From: a virus
Virus record (IMG/VR): IMGVR_UViG_3300035698_001661
Location: 1 to 26,661 of that record
Reading direction: 5' to 3' (one strand)
Length of the DNA stretch: 26,661 bases
Shown: positions 3,760 to 25,871 of the stretch, piece by piece
Layout: every line of letters begins with the position of its first letter
Position numbering within the stretch: position 1 is the first letter of the stretch
Position numbers and translations under genes: made by a program
The notes under the pieces: generated by a model
What the model was told of the DNA's origin: nothing
Databases searched by the model: none
What the model saw: the letters and a program-made list of their open reading frames with translations, nothing else

Positions 3760-4421
3760 TTTTTAGCCTTTGCAAGTTCGATTTTTCTAGTAAGTTGCTT
3801 GATTATCTTTTCACTATCATTTACACTCAATTCGTCCAACTCTTCTACTTGGTAAGCAATGTATAGCTTTTTAATATCGGCTTTTGATTGCTCTATAAGC
3901 TTCTCTATGCTCTCAATTATCTCTAGGGTTACATAGTTAGTAGGTAAAGCCCAAGATGGAAGTGTAGGTACTCTATACCAAAAGTCTTTTTTGCTTTTAG
4001 TTTGAGATTTAACATAATCTTTACTATTAGGGTTTTTCATAACACACTCTGCAAATACTGCTTCTAGTTTATATAAGTATCTTCCTATATTCCATTGAGT
4101 ACCTGCTCTTTTCATGGCTCCAGATATTCCACCTTTTACCGATTCGATATTAGTATTTGAAGCACTATCATATTTTGTTATCCATTCATCTTTGTGTTTG
4201 ATAGATATTCCACAAGATACACCACCGTCAGGACTTGGTAAGAACTCATTTTTCCAACCGAACGAGCCTACTACATCATCAAGTCTTTGCTGAATAGCTC
4301 TATTTGTTACATAAGCTAAAACCATGCACCACACGTTACCGTTTTTATCTCCGCTTCTTTGAACTCTCCACTCTATATCAAAAGGGTCGAAAGGTTCTGC
4401 TAGTTTTTTTTCTATTCTCAT
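3756..4421 (-). CDS. Rad52/Rad22-family single-strand annealing protein
   Basis: A 221-residue recombinase. Residues 15-125 carry the family signatures: the block ending AYVTNRAIQQRLDDVVGSFGW, GGVSCGISI, WITKYDSASNTNIESVKGG, and ISGAMKRAGTQWNIGRYLY. Such proteins form rings that anneal complementary single strands in phage recombination and in genome-end repair. The C-terminal 60 residues are a helical, lysine-rich tail. The ATG overlaps the preceding stop (ATGA) and is served by AAGGCGG, giving strong coupling. No 5'-3' exonuclease of the lambda Exo or RecE type is visible in the window, so the partner nuclease may lie outside or come from the host. Confidence 0.92.
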   Translation of the reverse strand: MRIEKKLAEPFDPFDIEWRVQRSGDKNGNVWCMVLAYVTNRAIQQRLDDVVGSFGWKNEFLPSPDGGVSCGISIKHKDEWITKYDSASNTNIESVKGGISGAMKRAGTQWNIGRYLYKLEAVFAECVMKNPNSKDYVKSQTKSKKDFWYRVPTLPSWALPTNYVTLEIIESIEKLIEQSKADIKKLYIAYQVEELDELSVNDSEKIIKQLTRKIELAKAKK

Positions 4422-4633
4422 AATACCGCCTTTAAATGTTCAATAATTAAATCTACACCGACTAAGCCATAATCTAAGCCCTCAATCTCTTTGACAAGTT
4501 CTTCAAGTTGTGGCACTACTTCATCGGCTAATCTTGACTCAATTAAATATTGAGCCTCTTCTAGTTGTTCTTCGCCTGATTGTTGCTTTGCTTGGTATTT
4601 ACCTAAAGCGTCTAGGTTTCCGTCTAATTCCAT
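4418..4633 (-). CDS. Hypothetical small acidic protein, first gene of the recombination operon
   Basis: The start is set at ATG 4633, giving 71 residues beginning MELDGNLDALGKY. An upstream TTG at 4669 would extend the frame, but it overlaps the -10 box of the promoter at 4661-4689 and precedes the expected transcript start; ATG 4633 has a strong AAGGAG five bases away. The protein is helical and strongly acidic (GEEQLEEAQYLIESRL, VPQLEELVKEIEGLDYG). No known family was recognised. It is the first gene after the early promoter and overlaps the Rad52-like start by four bases. Confidence 0.8.
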   Translation of the reverse strand: MELDGNLDALGKYQAKQQSGEEQLEEAQYLIESRLADEVVPQLEELVKEIEGLDYGLVGVDLIIEHLKAVL

Positions 4634-4660
4634 GATAACTCCTTTTTTTAAACATAAGGA

Positions 4661-4689
4661 ATTATACAATAAAAAGGATTAAATGTCAA
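4661..4689 (-). promoter_or_regulatory. Perfect sigma70-type promoter of the recombination operon
   Basis: On the minus strand TTGACA (4684-4689), a 17-base T-rich spacer and TATAAT (4661-4666) match the consensus at all 12 positions. The start is expected near 4654, giving a leader of about 20 bases that includes the AAGGAG site for the gene starting at 4633. It should be one of the strongest promoters in the window and drives annealase, Gp157-like, NinB-like, SSB-like and HTH genes. Confidence 0.88.
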
Positions 4690-8690: not shown

Positions 8691-10628
8691 TTATTTTTCC
8701 TCTTTTTCTTGTAAATTTTTAATTTCCATTATCAAAGCGCTTGTTAACGGAAGTTCTTTTGCTTTTGGTGCGTTTCCTAGTTTTATAAGCAAATTGGTGA
8801 TTGCTCTTGATTCATATATCCTGGAAAGCCCTCCAATTGTAGTCATTCCACCAATTCCGCCACCTGCGCCACCTAGCCAATCTGTTAAAATCGCTGTACC
8901 AATTAAAGGAACTGACTGCACTCCTGTTTCTGTCATAACCCCAGCTGTTCCTGCTCTTCTAGTTACGTTAAGTGCTTTTTCTAAACCTTCTATCTTTTTA
9001 AGATCGTTTCCTTTAAAAAATACTCCGGTAGATTTTTCTAATCTTTTAATATTGCTCATAAACTTCTCAGGTGTCATACTTTCAGCACCTCCAGACTTTC
9101 TATAGGCTTCATGAAGTATTGCACTCTGAGCGTTCTTTCTGCCCTCTGGTGTAAGGTTTTTATATAGTGTTTTGATTTCACTTGGCTTTTGACTAAATAA
9201 CATTCTTTTTACTAACTCTGGTGTGGCTTCACCTTTTGCTAGTGTAGATTTAAGAGTAGAATTTTTTAAGTCTCCCATCATGCTTGAAAGTCTTTTATTT
9301 GCTACTTCCCATTTAGTAACATCTTTTCTTTCTCCGTTTATTTTTATAAAATCGCCCATATCTTCTTTTAGTGAGCCATAGATTTTATTGATAGATTTAT
9401 CTGCTGTACTTTTAACACTTGCATAGTCAGGAGATTTAAACTCTGCCCCAAGCTGCTTTCTTAATAATTCAACATTAGTTAAATTTTGACCTTTTATTGA
9501 TCCTTTAAAGTCTTCTAATAATGTTATTGCAGGCTCTACGCTTTTTGTATTTAAGTCTCTAAGCATTGCTATTTCATTGTCTATCGTTGAAACAGTTTTA
9601 CTTACTGGAACTTCGCCCACTTCTCCAAGTTTTGTAATAACATCGCCCTTGAGTTTGGCATATTTTTGAACATCTGCTCCACGTTTTGCCAATAAGTTTG
9701 CCATAACATCATCTGTAGCGTCTGCAGCTTCTATTGCACCAAAGTCCCTTAAAGTTTCTCTAACTGATTCTATTCTTTGTGTTTGTTGCGCTGCTCTTTT
9801 TCCACCTGTTCCTGCAAAAGGTATTTTTTCTCCTGTTGCTTGTGCAAATTTGCCTATAAATGTTTTAGGATGAAATATATCGGAAGTCATAGGAGTAATT
9901 CCTTGAGCTTCTACTTCACCAACTAAGGCTGCTTTTGCTGAAGGTTTAGGAATTCTTGGTTTTTGTATCTTTGATATTGCTCCAAGTTCTGCTCCTATAG
10001 GTGCTATTGCCTCTAAAGGTGCTAAAGTTTCGCCTACTGCTTGGACCATTCCTTTTCCTGCTTCAGTTCTAGGCTCGTATGTTCCTGCTTGTGCGAATTT
10101 ATTGGCAGTTTCTTCAATTAGTCTAGCTCCCTCATCTGTTCCAAACTTACCGCTTCTCAGTTGATCAACAACACCTTTTAAAGTGCCTGTAATCATTCCA
10201 GCTAGTCCACCTGTTGCGCCAGTTCCTAAAGTCAAAGCTGTTTCACCTGCTCCGATAAATTGCTCGTTAAAAGTAGGGTCTTTAATTAATTTTATACTTT
10301 CTTTTCCTGGTGGTTGTTGAGGTCTTAAATATCCTACTGTTTTTATATTGGTGGGAAGAACAATTGCACCGCTTTGCACATCATCTTCTAGTTGCATTTT
10401 AGATTGTTCATCCATTCTTCCGTCTAAGTACGCTTGTATAACACCTTCAGGAATAGAACTTGCAACATTTGTCACATTAGGCTGTTTATTATCTGCTCGT
10501 AGCGTTAAGCCTTGAGGCAAAGATAAAGCACCGCTGTTTACATCAGCTTCAAAGTCTACTGATTCTTTAGGTGTCATAACTCCGCTTGTGTATGCTTGAT
10601 GTATTAGTTTGAGTTGTTCTTCGTTCAT
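8691..10628 (-). CDS. Virion ejection (internal) protein, gp16-like by position
   Basis: A 645-residue protein in the third ejection-protein slot, where P22 has gp16 (609 residues). The first 95 residues contain two copies of an IHQAY/VIQAYLDGRM ... FEADVNSGALSLP / LEDDVQSGAIVLP unit, a repeat common at the N-terminus of such proteins. Residues 125-240 are Gly/Ala-rich and mildly amphipathic (GAGETALTLGTGATGGLAGM, APLEAIAPIGAELGAI). The rest is helical with a further Gly-rich hydrophobic stretch near 575-600 (TAILTDWLGGAGGGIGGM). Such proteins are packed in the head and enter the host envelope ahead of the DNA. The specific gp16 equivalence rests on gene order and size. Confidence 0.72.
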   Translation of the reverse strand: MNEEQLKLIHQAYTSGVMTPKESVDFEADVNSGALSLPQGLTLRADNKQPNVTNVASSIPEGVIQAYLDGRMDEQSKMQLEDDVQSGAIVLPTNIKTVGYLRPQQPPGKESIKLIKDPTFNEQFIGAGETALTLGTGATGGLAGMITGTLKGVVDQLRSGKFGTDEGARLIEETANKFAQAGTYEPRTEAGKGMVQAVGETLAPLEAIAPIGAELGAISKIQKPRIPKPSAKAALVGEVEAQGITPMTSDIFHPKTFIGKFAQATGEKIPFAGTGGKRAAQQTQRIESVRETLRDFGAIEAADATDDVMANLLAKRGADVQKYAKLKGDVITKLGEVGEVPVSKTVSTIDNEIAMLRDLNTKSVEPAITLLEDFKGSIKGQNLTNVELLRKQLGAEFKSPDYASVKSTADKSINKIYGSLKEDMGDFIKINGERKDVTKWEVANKRLSSMMGDLKNSTLKSTLAKGEATPELVKRMLFSQKPSEIKTLYKNLTPEGRKNAQSAILHEAYRKSGGAESMTPEKFMSNIKRLEKSTGVFFKGNDLKKIEGLEKALNVTRRAGTAGVMTETGVQSVPLIGTAILTDWLGGAGGGIGGMTTIGGLSRIYESRAITNLLIKLGNAPKAKELPLTSALIMEIKNLQEKEEK

Positions 10629-10632
10629 ACTG

Positions 10633-11760
10633 TTACCTTGCGTATTTTAAATAGCTTTTTGTTTCTGGAGTTTCTTCTTGCTCTCCAGACACAAATACAT
10701 TATCAGGATTTAAACCGTAATTATTAACAACTTTTTCAAGTCCTCTTTTAGTTTTAATTTCTTGCTTTTGCGCTGCTTCTAAATATTTTTTAGCTAAGTT
10801 TGCAAAGTTTTTTCTTTGTGTAGGATTTAAAAATTTACCATCTTGTATTTTTTGCACTTGGTTTTTAAGTACATCTGCAAGTCCTGCTGTGTCTCTCGCT
10901 GTTGCAAACTCTGTTTCTCTTACAACACTACCAGGGTCTAACATTTTCATAAAAGAAGTTACTAAAGCAATATCTCCTGCTCCTGTACCGTCTTGGGACG
11001 AAGCAAAAAGATTTTCATATACTCTTGTGGATTCAAATAGTCCTTGAGTTTTTGCATTGTATTCTTTTCTTAGTTTTTCTTCTGCATTAAAAGCGTCTGT
11101 TCCTGTAAACTTATTAGGGTCTTCTGTTTTTGCTATTTCCATATCTAAGATAAGTTTTTTGGTTTCAGCACTTGTTTTTTCCATGTCAATTAAAGCTTTT
11201 TGCGTTTGTACTTTTGTTAGTTTGTTATCAGTTCCATATTTTACAAGTTCAGCATCTTGTTTTTTAATTTCTCCAGGAAGCAATGCTTTTGCTTTTCTTG
11301 TTTCGCTTAGTATTTTAAAAGTATCTGCAAATTTATCGACTCCCATCGTAGAGGATAAAAACAGTCCTAGACTAGTTTTAGCAGCGCTAGGGTTTTGATC
11401 TATTATACTAAGAAATGCTTTTGCTGCATCTTCGTCTTGTTTGTTTCCTGAGTTTTTAGCAGCTTCCATCTGTTTAGTTAATAAGTCTTTAGCAATCTCC
11501 ATGTTTCCACTTTCCACTGCTGCATATACTTTAGTCGCTGAGTTAAGTTTTGATTGTTGTTTGTCTGCATCTAAAATGTCAAAACTTCTTTTAAACTGCT
11601 CACTTAATTGAGGATGTTTATTCATCATATTAGTATAGTCTCGAGCGGTTGGATTTTCTAGCTCTGTAAAAGTTGTCAAGTCAGTTTGTAATGTAAGAGC
11701 AGCGGTTTTTTTTCTTTGAAGTTCTTCTGCTTGTAATTTATTAGCTGCTCCTTGGTCCAT
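10633..11760 (-). CDS. Virion ejection (internal) protein, gp20-like by position
   Basis: From ATG 11760 this is 375 residues, largely helical and charged (KLQAEELQRKKTAALTLQTD, SETRKAKALLPGEIKKQDAEL). It occupies the P22 gp20 slot between the gp7-like and gp16-like genes. GGAG lies five bases before ATG 11760. However, the same frame is open and protein-like for 34 codons further upstream (to about 11862: INGEILTAPTDYLTQRP, then GVTEGIQRGLQLGAA) with no ATG, GTG or TTG. The natural N-terminus is therefore probably upstream and reached by a frameshift, a rare ATT start, or hidden by a one-base error; see the findings. Confidence 0.72.
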   Translation of the reverse strand: MDQGAANKLQAEELQRKKTAALTLQTDLTTFTELENPTARDYTNMMNKHPQLSEQFKRSFDILDADKQQSKLNSATKVYAAVESGNMEIAKDLLTKQMEAAKNSGNKQDEDAAKAFLSIIDQNPSAAKTSLGLFLSSTMGVDKFADTFKILSETRKAKALLPGEIKKQDAELVKYGTDNKLTKVQTQKALIDMEKTSAETKKLILDMEIAKTEDPNKFTGTDAFNAEEKLRKEYNAKTQGLFESTRVYENLFASSQDGTGAGDIALVTSFMKMLDPGSVVRETEFATARDTAGLADVLKNQVQKIQDGKFLNPTQRKNFANLAKKYLEAAQKQEIKTKRGLEKVVNNYGLNPDNVFVSGEQEETPETKSYLKYAR

Positions 11761-11822: not shown

Positions 11823-12494
11823 TTAAATAGTCTGTAGGTGCCGTGAGAATTTCCCCATTAATTTTAGAGTTCCAAGCGTACCTATTGAGCTTGTTACATC
11901 TCCGATTGCTTGAGCGTTGGCTTGTCCTGCTGCTAGTGCTGACCCTGCTTGTGCTTGTCCTGCTCCAATTGCTGCATTTCCTATAATTTGCCCTGTTTGA
12001 ATACCTGCTGAGCCAACACCTGCTGCACTTGCTCGACCTAGTTGAGTTAATCCACCTAGCTTAGAGTATTGTGATTCTATTAGTTGTGATAACATCTGTG
12101 GTCTAAATTGTGCTAAGGCTGCTTGAGTGTTTCCACCCCTAAGTCCGCCTGTTGCTGCTGCATTTTGGAGGATTGCTTCTTCTCCCTGATTCACTAAGGC
12201 TTCAAATTGTGGCGATTGTTCAAGTCTTGAAATGGCTGCTTGTTGTGCTTCTGGTCCACCTTCTTCAATTCCGAGCAAGTTCATTTGCTCCATTAAAGCG
12301 CCTTCTCCTGCTTGAGTGTAAGGATTTAATATTTCCTGCATTGCGTCAAACTGTCTTCTTGACTCTGCTGCTGCTGTGTCTGCTGCTGCTGTTTGCGCTC
12401 CTGCTGCTGTTGATGCTGCACTTTTTGTCGCGCTTGAAGAAAGTACTCCACCAACAACCGCTGAGCCAACAACCGCTGTAATAATTCCTGACAT
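11823..12494 (-). CDS. Virion ejection protein of the gp7/DNA-transfer type
   Basis: A 223-residue Ala/Gly/Gln-rich protein, close to P22 gp7 in size (229). The order MSGIITAVVGSAVVGG, then FDAMQEILNPYTQAGEGAL, then QGEEAILQNAAATGGLRGGN, then ALAQFRPQMLSQLIESQYSK is the signature of a widespread podovirus ejection/DNA-transfer family. The first 20 residues could be a removable or membrane-interacting peptide. The final residues SRHLQTI look unlike the family end; they arise after a GGGGAAA run (11850-11856), where the next gene's frame becomes protein-like. Its start overlaps the cupin-SET stop in TAATG, so the two are coupled. Confidence 0.85.
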   Translation of the reverse strand: MSGIITAVVGSAVVGGVLSSSATKSAASTAAGAQTAAADTAAAESRRQFDAMQEILNPYTQAGEGALMEQMNLLGIEEGGPEAQQAAISRLEQSPQFEALVNQGEEAILQNAAATGGLRGGNTQAALAQFRPQMLSQLIESQYSKLGGLTQLGRASAAGVGSAGIQTGQIIGNAAIGAGQAQAGSALAAGQANAQAIGDVTSSIGTLGTLKLMGKFSRHLQTI

Positions 12495-13294
12495 TACGCT
12501 GCTCCTTTTAGATTTTCTCTATAGTTTAGCAATATTTCTTCATTTTTTAAAATATTTCTTTTAGATTTAATAAAAACATTTCCATTATCTTTTATAATTT
12601 CTATATTTGCAAATGGAGAGTGATTAATATATCTTCCTAAGTCTGTCTTTATTCCTTTTATGACCCCAATTCCTATAATTTCGTCTTTTTCTATTGCTCT
12701 TTTGGCAAAGAATCCGACTCCGTTAATTTCTGATTGGTCCATATACACGAAAGGGTGTTCTTTTGATGGTATGATGTTTTTATGATCTTCCATTTCTTTT
12801 TGAACTCTTTCTTCTGTGTAGTTTATTTCTTTTAATAAGTTTTGATAATCTAGTTTAGATTCTTTTATAAAGTGATTTGTTTTATCCATTGTTTCTTTTT
12901 CTGCATCTTCGCAAGTTAAAGCGCTTGTTTTATGATAAGTAGTCCAAATAGTATCTTCTAAAACATAGCCGAATTTTTTAGTTCCTGCTTGTGCTACTCT
13001 TGTGAATGGTGCTTCTATTAATGTCTCGCTATCATCCGAGAACATCATTAATTTACCTTTTGATACTGTCTCTATAAAGCTGTCAGGGTGTGCCACTCCT
13101 ATTGCTAGTGTTCCTTTAGGTATAAATATTTCTCTTACATAAATACCTTCGTGGATAAAATGTTTTACGGGGATTTCTACTTGTTCTTCTTTTAAAAATG
13201 CCATTGATAATATATCTAAAGCATATTTTTGTTTTAATAAAGGCTTGACAAAAGTTGCAATATCATCATTTGTTTTTTTCATTACTTTAGTCAT
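12494..13294 (-). CDS. Cupin-SET domain fusion protein (putative protein lysine methyltransferase)
   Basis: A 266-residue protein. Residues 40-125 read as a small cupin-like beta barrel (GIYVREIFIPKGTLAIGVAH, SKGKLMMFSDDSETL, FGYVLEDTIWTTYHKT). Residues 130-180 are a helical linker. Residues 186-261 are a SET domain: GVGFFAKRAIEKDEIIG, RYINHSPFANIEI and NEEILLNYRE, which supply the NHSPxxN cofactor/active-site loop and the C-terminal catalytic Tyr region. SET enzymes transfer methyl groups from SAM to protein lysines. Placement inside the virion cassette, coupled to an ejection gene, suggests that it modifies or accompanies a virion protein, or is injected; that is inference. It has its own extended -10 promoter. 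The cupin may bind a metal or ligand, but the metal-binding histidines are incomplete. Confidence 0.8.
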   Translation of the reverse strand: MTKVMKKTNDDIATFVKPLLKQKYALDILSMAFLKEEQVEIPVKHFIHEGIYVREIFIPKGTLAIGVAHPDSFIETVSKGKLMMFSDDSETLIEAPFTRVAQAGTKKFGYVLEDTIWTTYHKTSALTCEDAEKETMDKTNHFIKESKLDYQNLLKEINYTEERVQKEMEDHKNIIPSKEHPFVYMDQSEINGVGFFAKRAIEKDEIIGIGVIKGIKTDLGRYINHSPFANIEIIKDNGNVFIKSKRNILKNEEILLNYRENLKGAA

Positions 13295-15292: not shown

Positions 15293-16688
15293 AAAGTTGC
15301 TCTATTTGTATTTCTAATCTTGCTATTGATAAATGAGTGTCACTTGTACCTCTAAATCTTTGTACTCTCCAATTTCTCATACTACCTTGCTGTAGCCACA
15401 CTAAGCGCTTGTTTCTCTCACCTTGCTTTCCTGCTTTAATAGGTCTTTGATTACTCCATGTGATACCATCTAGGCTGTATTGAGTCCATATTGTAGGGTC
15501 AACACCTAAAGGAACACGACCACTTAAGCATATTAATTCTATTTCGTGAAAAATTGCTCCGTTGCTGTCGTTATACATTATTGTAGTTCCAAATTCCCAC
15601 TCGACTACCTCGTCAAAATGAGATGATATATTATCTACATAACTCCCTATTTTAAAAGTTGTAGGGTCTCCAAATATCCATTTATCGTATACCCATATTA
15701 AATTTTTTGCTCTGTATTGGCTATTCCCACTCAATGAACTTGATAGTGTATGCCATACATGAGTTTGCATTGCTTGTGAAGCTGCTCCATCATATGCTAA
15801 AGTTTGTTTAGGTAAATGTATTAAAAGAAATTGGTGTGCCTTATCTACTCTTGTTTCAAGCTTAACGAGTGATAATTCGTCTTCTGTATATTCTTGTAAT
15901 ATTTGTTCTATTTCGCGTGTTGATATTTTTGTAACTGTTGAGTTGTTTCCAAGCCAAATTGCTGGAGCTTCTTCTCTTCCGCTACCTAAGAAGGCTATTG
16001 TCTCAAGAAATACTGCACAAGCATGAGTACCTATAACGCCTCTATCTATTTGCGCGCCCTCTATTCTTCTAAATGGAAAGCCCGTGCCTCCTACGTTGTC
16101 AAAAACTTCTATTGTATATCTATTAAGTGCATATGCTTCATTTCTTAGTTTTAAAAGTGCTTTGATTGGGTCTGGTGATGCTTCTGAACTTCCGTATTTT
16201 AACGGATTTACTTGTGTAGGGTCTGACAACTCAGTTATTACAATAAACTCACCATCTGTTGTCATAAAATAACCGTCTATCCATATCAGATCTAAAACTA
16301 TTCCTAAATCGGGGTCTGTTACTTGTTGAAACAAAGTTCCGTCCCAATAGAATAAATTATCATTTGAAGCTATTGCAAGTCTATCAAAAGAGTAAGCCAT
16401 TGTAACAAGTTCGGTTGTTCCTCCGACATCACCAATAGTTGTAATTACCCCTGTTGAAGATATTGATACTAACTTAGAGCCTAATACTCTATATAAAACA
16501 TTATTCCAATTAATACCGCCTCTATCTACTGCTGTACCTTCTGTAAATTCTACAAGTCCTTCCCCTGGTCTTAAATATCCCGTATTCATTCCTGTTTGTT
16601 TTGGTACGGGAATTAAATTCTTAGGGTATGAAGTTCTAAAGTCTGGTGCTTCATCTGTAAAAATTCCGTCGAGGATAGGTACTTGCAT
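15285..16688 (-). CDS. P22 gp10-like tail hub / packaged-DNA stabilisation protein
   Basis: A 467-residue beta-rich protein that closely follows the gp10 pattern (P22: 472 residues): YPKNLIPVPKQTGMNTGYLR, GGINWNNVLYRVLGSKLV, AYSFDRLAIASNDNLFYWDG, IWIDGYFMTTDG, the repeat-like RNEAYALNRYTIEVFDN, and LETRVDKAHQFLLIHLPKQT. In P22, gp10 binds below gp4 and closes the portal channel after packaging. The ATG at 16688 lies in a TAATG with the tiny Lys-rich ORF. Downstream genes are tail parts, in keeping with this identity. Confidence 0.9.
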   Translation of the reverse strand: MQVPILDGIFTDEAPDFRTSYPKNLIPVPKQTGMNTGYLRPGEGLVEFTEGTAVDRGGINWNNVLYRVLGSKLVSISSTGVITTIGDVGGTTELVTMAYSFDRLAIASNDNLFYWDGTLFQQVTDPDLGIVLDLIWIDGYFMTTDGEFIVITELSDPTQVNPLKYGSSEASPDPIKALLKLRNEAYALNRYTIEVFDNVGGTGFPFRRIEGAQIDRGVIGTHACAVFLETIAFLGSGREEAPAIWLGNNSTVTKISTREIEQILQEYTEDELSLVKLETRVDKAHQFLLIHLPKQTLAYDGAASQAMQTHVWHTLSSSLSGNSQYRAKNLIWVYDKWIFGDPTTFKIGSYVDNISSHFDEVVEWEFGTTIMYNDSNGAIFHEIELICLSGRVPLGVDPTIWTQYSLDGITWSNQRPIKAGKQGERNKRLVWLQQGSMRNWRVQRFRGTSDTHLSIARLEIQIEQLYA

Positions 16689-16744
16689 TACTTGCCTTTT
16701 TTCTTAGATTGCTTTTTTTTCTTTGGCATTTTTCCGTATGGCAT
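16688..16744 (-). CDS. Tiny lysine-rich ORF between two structural genes
   Basis: An 18-codon frame reading MPYGKMPKKKKQSKKKGK, nine of whose 18 residues are lysine. Its ATG sits in a TAATG with the stop of the preceding gene and its own TAA sits in a TAATG with the tail-hub start, so it exactly fills the gap. Small basic proteins of this kind occur beside head-completion genes in other podoviruses, where they may bind DNA or a virion partner. There is no strong separate ribosome site, so expression would depend on coupling. The A-rich run could also simply be the ribosome site region for the hub gene. Confidence 0.45.
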   Translation of the reverse strand: MPYGKMPKKKKQSKKKGK

Positions 16745-17924: not shown

Positions 17925-17935
17925 ATTATACCATA
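17925..17935 (-). promoter_or_regulatory. Extended -10 promoter downstream of the coat terminator
   Basis: TATGGTATAAT on the minus strand includes TGnTATAAT. The -35 position falls in the terminator stem, and nothing like TTGACA is present. It would restart transcription for the neck and tail genes after most coat-gene transcripts end. The leader to ATG 17905 is about 13 bases. Confidence 0.6.
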
Positions 17936-17937
17936 TT

Positions 17938-17964
17938 AAAGAAAAAGGGGAGGTTGTCTCCCCT
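17938..17964 (-). terminator. Intrinsic terminator after the coat gene
   Basis: Read on the minus strand, AGGGGAG and CTCCCCT (17946-17964) form a seven-bp stem with loop ACAAC. A T-tract (TTTTTCTTT) follows at once, the standard intrinsic-terminator form. It lies five bases beyond the coat stop and just ahead of the next promoter, so it can lower expression of the neck genes relative to coat. Confidence 0.88.
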
Positions 17965-22223: not shown

Positions 22224-22234
22224 ATTATACCATA
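22224..22234 (-). promoter_or_regulatory. Extended -10 promoter upstream of portal
   Basis: TATGGTATAAT on the minus strand matches the box downstream of the coat gene at all 11 positions. A weak -35 (ACCACA at 18 bases) may be present. The transcript would start about 21 bases before the portal TTG. It lies in the 56-base gap after the large terminase. Confidence 0.6.
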
Positions 22235-24158: not shown

Positions 24159-24351
24159 TAAAATACCTCCTTATTAAATAAGTCCTCATGTAGCTCGAAA
24201 TAAAAAACAATACTGTAGATATACTGGCTACCCATATTTGCTCGAGGTGGTTAAATAAAGGAAATATCGAGTAAACTATCAGCCATCCGATAATTATGCC
24301 TACGATTTGATTTATAAGCGTTTCTTTATGGCTCTGTGCTTTACTTTGCAT
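24151..24351 (-). CDS. Small two-span membrane protein (DUF7220-like)
   Basis: A 66-residue protein with QSKAQSHKETLINQIVGIII, a first membrane segment (IVGIIIGWLIVYSIFPLF), a second (WVASISTVLFFISSYM) and the end RTYLIRRYFN. The pattern S-x(3)-E-x(3)-N ... two spans ... S-x-R-x-Y-x-x-R-R-x-F-N is typical of a phage family often placed near the terminase genes; function unknown. It overlaps the small-terminase start by eight bases. Confidence 0.75.
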   Translation of the reverse strand: MQSKAQSHKETLINQIVGIIIGWLIVYSIFPLFNHLEQIWVASISTVLFFISSYMRTYLIRRYFNG

Positions 24352-24416
24352 TTAAACTTATCTCCATGTTTTTAAAACCTCTTATATTGCTCTTTATAGT
24401 TCCACACTTGAAACAG

Positions 24417-24719
24417 TTATTGCTTTCTATCTGTTGCCCATAAATGTCCAGCACCTTCTTTCCATCCATATAAACAAGGCTCGTGTTTCCAATGATAGTC
24501 TTGTCTTCCCATAACAAGCGAATTCTTATTCCAGATTATACACTGTCTAACATTCCATCCTATGTCGTGACATGCTCCTCTAAAGTTGTACCCCTCTGAA
24601 TCTGCGTGCCATATATAAAACACTCCCCCTTCTTTCATTACATCATTTGCATTTTGAAAAGAGTCCTTTAAAAACTGTCTAAAAGAACTGTCGTCCATTG
24701 AGTCATTCTGTATTGTCAT
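24417..24719 (-). pseudogene. Fragment of a DNA N6/N4 methyltransferase
   Basis: The 100 residues (MTIQNDSMDDSSFRQFLKDS, then MKEGGVFYIWHADSEGYNFR, then IGWNVRQCIIWNKNSLVMGR, QDYHWKHEPCLYGW and GHLWATDRKQ) match the middle of phage and prophage DNA modification methylases. The DPPY catalytic motif normally sits just upstream and is absent, as is the downstream segment with HPTMKP and the SAM-binding FxGxG motif; the frame ends at RKQ where intact proteins continue TTVWxF. Both flanks were read in all frames without finding the missing parts. It is therefore a remnant and unlikely to methylate DNA. The ribosome site is weak (AAGAAG). A domesticated fragment with another role cannot be excluded. 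Confidence 0.8.
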
Positions 24720-25574: not shown

Positions 25575-25823
25575 CTATTCTTGGGCTTCTTGAAATTTGT
25601 TACACCCGAAATCTGCAAATATTGTGTACGTTGAGCTAATTATTGTTTGAGTAAAACATAAAGAATCATGGTTTGTGCATTTAAATTCGCCCTCGTCATA
25701 TTCCCCTAAGTGGCTACAATGTCCGCAGTTTCTTGAGTTAAAATACTCTTCTGCCATTTCAAACATAGCGTCCCCATTATCATAACAAGCAGGCATATTT
25801 TCTATTAGTTCTTCTTTAGTCAT
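25575..25823 (-). CDS. Cysteine-rich, probably zinc-binding small phage protein
   Basis: An 82-residue protein with a helical N-terminus (MTKEELIENMPACYDNGDAM) and cysteines at 33, 36, 49, 56 and 74 (CGHC ... KCT ... SLC ... DFGCNKF). The CxxC ... C ... C ... DFGCNKFE order is common in small phage proteins of unknown function and suggests a metal site. The ATG at 25823 follows AAAGGAAAA and has a promoter immediately upstream. Confidence 0.7.
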   Translation of the reverse strand: MTKEELIENMPACYDNGDAMFEMAEEYFNSRNCGHCSHLGEYDEGEFKCTNHDSLCFTQTIISSTYTIFADFGCNKFQEAQE

Positions 25824-25841: not shown

Positions 25842-25871
25842 ATTATACCATAAACTCCCTAAATTTAGGGA
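25842..25871 (-). promoter_or_regulatory. Extended -10 promoter with a perfect palindrome over the -35 site
   Basis: TATGGTATAAT (25842-25852) repeats the box at portal and after coat. The expected -35 position (25865-25870) lies within TCCCTAAATTTAGGGA (25856-25871), a perfect 16-base palindrome, which is a plausible operator. The palindrome begins two bases after the stop of the zinc-ribbon remnant, so it might also end that transcript, but no T-run follows. Confidence 0.55.

Follow-up and report, generated by a model that had tools for sequence, protein, structure and literature searches.

The window analyzed here (the whole stretch of 26,661 nucleotides of viral DNA) carries on its minus strand a gene whose product consists, from N- to C-terminus, of a cupin barrel, a helical linker and a SET domain (Table 1). 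The gene lies directly 5' of the first ejection gene and heads the ejection cassette, in agreement with the late, virion-clustered location that a first-pass annotation of the sequence had proposed. The adjacent ORF encodes a gp7-like ejection protein (Pfam P22_gp7, E 4.9e-9; phrog_598, E 3.9e-37), and the TAATG coupling between the two genes, also claimed in the annotation, was found as a stop/start overlap. The next gene was phrog_598 (DNA ejection) in 42 of 45 fusion loci, usually overlapping the fusion gene, and phages including PH1 and P26218 have their fusion at this site too, showing that synteny at this locus is strict.

Table 1. Features of the cupin-SET locus and related elements. 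Positions are those of the window, except for the conserved leader, given as locus:position.
Feature	Position	Strand	Basis or context
Cupin-SET fusion gene, 266 aa	12494..13294	-	ORF call, Pfam, PHROGs, AF2 model, structure comparison
Cupin (double-stranded beta-helix) domain, residues 38-138	12881..13183	-	PHROGs homology, AF2 model, structure match
Helical linker, residues 141-175	12770..12874	-	AF2 model; stays with SET in cupin-less SET proteins
SET domain (residues 176-262); SET-I insert and Cys-rich post-SET both absent	12509..12769	-	Pfam, model
Predicted SAM-binding loop, SET motif GxGxF at residues 192-196	12707..12721	-	Sequence, homologue alignment
SET motif NHSPFAN, residues 224-230	12605..12625	-	Homologue alignment
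Predicted catalytic Tyr258 of NY motif	12521..12523	-	Homologue alignment
gp7-like DNA ejection protein gene, 223 aa	11823..12494	-	Pfam P22_gp7, phrog_598
Second ejection-cassette gene, 375 aa, P22 gene 20 position	10633..11760	-	phrog_13634
Third ejection-cassette gene, 645 aa, P22 gene 16 position	8691..10628	-	phrog_770 DNA transfer protein
TAATG stop/start overlap, fusion to gp7-like gene	12492..12496	-	Sequence
Extended -10 promoter-like site TGGTATAAT, 18 nt 5' of fusion start codon	13312..13320	-	Sequence
Lysine-rich 18-aa ORF MPYGKMPKKKKQSKKKGK	16688..16744	-	TAATG at both ends; between 154-aa ORF and gp10-like gene
Conserved leader GCTGAG...CCAGCAGC	L042:7881, L087:7919, L255:2440, L267:1295, L294:2475, L227:1559, L300:3930, L319:8147 and others		

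The fusion gene had also been assigned an extended -10 promoter of its own. Four copies of TGGTATAAT occur in the window, each 18-28 nt before a gene start: that of the fusion gene and three others (17925-17933, 22224-22232 and 25842-25850, all on the minus strand), which precede a 65-aa ORF, the portal gene and ORF 25575-25823. Since these three further copies also sit 19-28 nt before starts, a promoter before the fusion gene is plausible, and from their sequence and placement all four sites are probably extended -10 promoters. The signal was weak 5' of SET homologues, where an extended -10 was present in 15 of 60 against 7.7 expected. A terminator-like hairpin (17946-17964) was observed ahead of the TGGTATAAT-led 65-aa ORF.

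Domains of the fusion protein

Structure prediction, named in the first-pass annotation as a check on both domains, gave a confident AF2 model (mean pLDDT 89.5, pTM 0.77; input, the window protein and 62 IMG/VR relatives) in which both the cupin and the SET domain were matched. The N-terminal barrel described there as cupin-like aligned with cupins, best with HP0902 (5j4g; VIA Z 11.7) and with many others at Z of at least 10. The cupin metal motif (HxH...E / H) is not kept: only His69 of motif 1 is found in the window protein, and the ligands are unconserved in homologues. Many cupins have lost this motif.

The SET assignment was borne out by Pfam SET (PF00856; E 1.7e-7; score 32 bits, curated cut-off 22.4), which matched 57 of 63 proteins scanned, the other six being cupin-only controls, and by the model, in which residues 169-266 aligned with an EZH2-type SET domain (Z 10.1, 90 residues aligned, rmsd 2.6) and residues 177-260 with that of MLL3 (Z 9.9, 34% identity). 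The whole SET core was aligned in these comparisons, which at the level of alignment are compatible with the C-terminal pseudoknot topology. The motifs reported earlier as intact were recovered as GVGFFA (192-197), NHSPFAN and LLNYRE with Tyr258. In an alignment of the best 80 of at least 582 IMG/VR relatives, giving 71 distinct rows including the window and nearly all full fusions, Asn224 and His225 were kept in 70 of the 71 rows and Tyr258 in 69, the remaining rows being gaps; the GxG, NHS and Tyr motifs were nearly invariant.

Compared with MLL/KMT2, EZH2 and PBCV-1 vSET, the window protein shares the core fold and the SAM-binding and catalytic motifs but lacks the SET-I insert and the Cys-rich pre- and post-SET flanks, and is fused to a cupin. 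The spacing from GxGxF to NHS is 27 residues as against 61 in MLL3, about 35 residues fewer. Judged by these features the domain is miniaturized, an atypical member of the SET family rather than a non-member, since SET-I is variable within the family. The insert normally helps to form the peptide/substrate groove. Cupin and SET are encoded by two distinct, overlapping genes in Paraburkholderia ferrariae, and two further assemblies carry linker and SET with no cupin nearby. Because the linker stays with SET even where the cupin is absent, linker or cupin may provide the surface that binds the substrate. The modeled fold and the motifs point to a probable protein-lysine methyltransferase, its activity being predicted.

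Distribution and selection of the fusion

Over its full length the protein matched phrog_34170 (E 1.2e-43), a family of unknown function. The cupin-linker-SET order, the place before gp7 and the motifs are common to this family, to gp30 of Rhodoferax phage P26218 and to ANY29560 of Pseudoalteromonas phage PH1; identity is only about 28-31%, and the window copy differs in being shorter and in lacking His 67 and 73, common in the cupins of the family. Using tblastn, the fusion was found in phages PH1, P26218 and zth2-2 and in Manatee Spring podoviruses. This SET type occurred in only 8 of 50,697 phage records, always within the cupin-SET fusion, and no close relatives of the window, itself a fragment, were found in the phage collection. 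At least 582 IMG/VR contigs encode a relative, indicating that the fusion is carried by hundreds of environmental podophages. Genome assemblies with the fusion were mainly from Proteobacteria; some were metagenome bins assigned to other phyla. A search of predicted viral protein structures returned a 263-aa 'SET domain containing protein' of an uncultured Caudovirales record (34% identity). The domain fusion is thus well supported and not unique to this phage.

From 20 independent close pairs, dN/dS was estimated at about 0.08 in the SET half and about 0.05 in the cupin half, showing purifying selection on both; the SET domain is an authentic module under selection. Its inheritance is partly modular. 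In the locus pairs L062/L072 and L065/L071 the SET halves were about 70% identical, whereas the cupin half and gp7 were at least 95% identical, a modular exchange of the SET part. Breakpoints were found on both sides of SET, and SET and gp7 often stay together with later genes swapped; SET is sometimes exchanged alone, so co-inheritance with the ejection genes is not strict.

The gene position 5' of the ejection genes

The gene directly 5' of the first ejection gene is gene 13 in T7 and gene 14 in P22, and promoter phi13 precedes gene 13 of T7 as the putative promoter in the window precedes the fusion gene. To our knowledge the roles of these two genes are obscure, their products bearing no label beyond head morphogenesis or internal virion protein. 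The model of T7 gp13 (pLDDT 93.7) is predicted to have a GNAT acetyltransferase fold: all of the 50 VIA matches listed were acetyltransferase-fold proteins, the best reaching Z 12.1 with 127 of 138 residues aligned. An acetyl-CoA loop of gp13 is not conserved in the alignment, and the GNAT fold is therefore no proof of enzyme activity.

P22 gp14 can be linked to GNATs through intermediates by profile comparison. Proteins from this position in three loci (L250, L278 and L282) aligned with the P22 gp14 family (hhalign probability 91.6, E 8e-7) and matched both phrog_651, which is that family (about 1e-11), and the acetyltransferase family phrog_1249 (about 1e-6); those of L278 and L282 also matched Pfam Acetyltransf_4, weakly. 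Direct profile comparisons of P22 gp14 with the cupin and of T7 gp13 with P22 gp14 gave no match, and a sequence search for solved structures of gp13/gp14 relatives gave none that was convincing. Membership of both proteins in the wider GNAT superfamily may already have been noted in domain-clan databases. A canonical GNAT stands at this position in locus L294, and the corresponding gene of phage PfAn1 is annotated as an acetyltransferase.

The gene before gp7 was scored in 80 loci with a gp7 like that of the window: 54 occupants were helical, 11 were cupins, 11 P22-gp14/GNAT-like, one a canonical GNAT and three cupin-SET fusions. The commonest occupant in relatives is phrog_21390 (loci L218-L296, for example L272:2559-3008), of about 150 aa, with the motifs FDDxADGD and YVWRAGYYD and no Pfam match; 'helical' is here a guess from its sequence.

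Cupins of phrog_12032 and phrog_24280 (BPP-1 Bbp23, Vibrio phages, Sphaerotilus R1) are homologous to the N-terminal domain of the fusion and mostly share its pre-ejection place, but have no SET. Cupin-only homologues stand at that place in P22-like phages and before the first internal virion protein gene in T7-like phages; in Alteromonas phage R8W the cupin precedes the connector gene. Bordetella phage BPP-1 has both types of occupant, GNAT and cupin, side by side. Its gene order is an exception (L013:9468-10387): unlike the arrangement in the window, the bbp23 cupin gene follows and is overlapped by the bbp24 GNAT gene, and both lie 5' of the portal region.

In part of the loci a conserved leader, GCTGAG...CCAGCAGC, lies about 50 nt 5' of the gene at this position, whatever the fold of the occupant. 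Thirty distinct copies were found there and eight elsewhere in 5.2 Mb (both strands), and two of these eight (L319 and L020) are also leaders of this position. A -10-like sequence precedes the leader in several loci, a small hairpin with little covariation is predicted, and an Rfam search with the leader gave no match.

The position is thus common to GNAT-related proteins and cupin-SET fusions. The fold of the fusion is unlike that of GNATs, and with no homology between cupin or SET and T7 gp13 or P22 gp14 it is a positional analogue only; by analogy, the occupants may do equivalent jobs. A broader proposal, which we consider rather unlikely as a whole, is that short-tailed phages keep a protein-modification position at the head of the ejection cassette, in which GNAT-type proteins (T7 gp13, P22 gp14), cupins, cupin-SET fusions and helical proteins swap behind a shared promoter or leader, and where ejection proteins would be prepared for packing, portal passage or membrane insertion by having amines acetylated or methylated, the cupin-SET protein being the lysine-methylating version. 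Against a position for enzymes, gp13 may have its GNAT fold without being catalytic, and the helical phrog_21390 has no assigned activity. In the literature searched, neither a mini-SET domain without SET-I nor a gene of this kind filling the T7 gene 13 / P22 gene 14 position had been described, and the papers searched, which cover few of the subscription journals, included none on SET or cupin-SET proteins of phages.

Possible roles and substrates

We tentatively favor, as a reading that falls somewhat short of probable, a protein-lysine methyltransferase, non-structural or minor in the virion, that would act at the assembly stage of a P22-like podophage and serve the ejection apparatus. The cupin domain would probably dock or oligomerize, holding the protein at the ejection or tail machinery, and the mini-SET domain would use SAM to methylate lysines of that machinery or of a co-assembled factor, late in infection, during assembly and before injection. 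The position shared with T7 gene 13 and P22 gene 14 favors such an assembly-stage action. In the virion proteome of the T7-like phage phiPsa17, gp14, gp15 and gp16 are listed and gp13 is not (PMC4517105), which by analogy suggests that proteins of this position need not be virion components. Points against this reading are the missing SET-I, which could mean inactivity or a SAM sensor, and the exchange of the SET half beside a nearly identical cupin and gp7.

An independently exchanged SET half is what would be expected if its targets keep changing, as in an injected or early effector that rides in the virion and whose methylation target at infection would be a host protein, in the envelope or ribosome, RNA polymerase or a defense factor. 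Viral SET proteins acting on host histones are known, an example being PBCV-1 vSET (PDB 1n3j), which was among the matches, and the gene is within the ejection cassette and coupled to it. We nevertheless regard an effector as unlikely, since most effectors are not fixed in one structural-gene position across phage groups and the counterpart in this position is missing from the phiPsa17 virion list.

A non-catalytic role, in which SET and cupin serve an assembly chaperone as structural or binding modules and any SAM binding is vestigial or regulatory, seems improbable to a similar degree. The absence of SET-I and post-SET, the unconserved cupin metal ligands, the many phages with a cupin alone and the example of T7 gp13, which retains a GNAT fold around an unconserved acetyl-CoA loop, are in its favor, but a scaffold would not be expected to keep the catalytic Asn-His, the Tyr and the GxG loop almost perfectly, and SET also occurs as a separate gene. 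A short tail fiber or adhesin with a SET appendix, suggested by what PHROGs and GenBank call the cupin half (phrog_12032, E 2e-32, 'short tail fiber protein'; phrog_24280 'tail fiber adhesin'), is very unlikely, because the fold is a small cupin, fiber repeats, a trimerization domain and a receptor-binding domain are all absent, a separate 678-aa protein occupies the tailspike position, and the name comes from annotation only, no paper giving a structural or proteomic source for it having been found in the literature searched.

For the favored methyltransferase reading, candidate substrates were sought among the ejection proteins. No target lysine was conserved across the gp7-, gp20- and gp16-like proteins of SET phages, which counts against that reading, and gp7 cannot be a universal substrate, since two of the 52 distinct gp7 sequences lack lysine altogether. 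A lysine near residue 24 of gp7 was rejected as SET-specific, being common to most gp7-like proteins whatever the occupant of the preceding position. The first-pass annotation had also named the lysine-rich product MPYGKMPKKKKQSKKKGK as a possible SET substrate. The ORF is real, yet it recurred neither in SET loci nor in IMG/VR, and with nothing in either set tying it to SET it was rejected as a substrate. It is a plausible small ORF, unique so far, and the TAATG at both ends suggests that it is possibly translated.

The occurrence of a motif-intact putative methyltransferase at the T7 gene 13 / P22 gene 14 position, together with a GNAT fold or ancestry there, raises the idea that ejection proteins or their partners are chemically modified before injection. 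If true, this would, as far as we know, give SET lysine methylation its first defined role in a bacteriophage; the interest of the locus lies in the miniature SET domain and in the comparison of its position with T7 gp13 and P22 gp14.

Three other features of the minus strand of the window were observed. A perfect sigma-70 consensus (TTGACA-17-TATAAT, 12/12) is found at 4661-4689, near the upstream end of an 83-aa ORF (4418-4669). By eye, a 221-aa ORF (1157-1822) resembles an HNH/AP2-type homing endonuclease, and two overlapping short ORFs (24341-24719) resemble part of a DNA methyltransferase that may be truncated or frameshifted.
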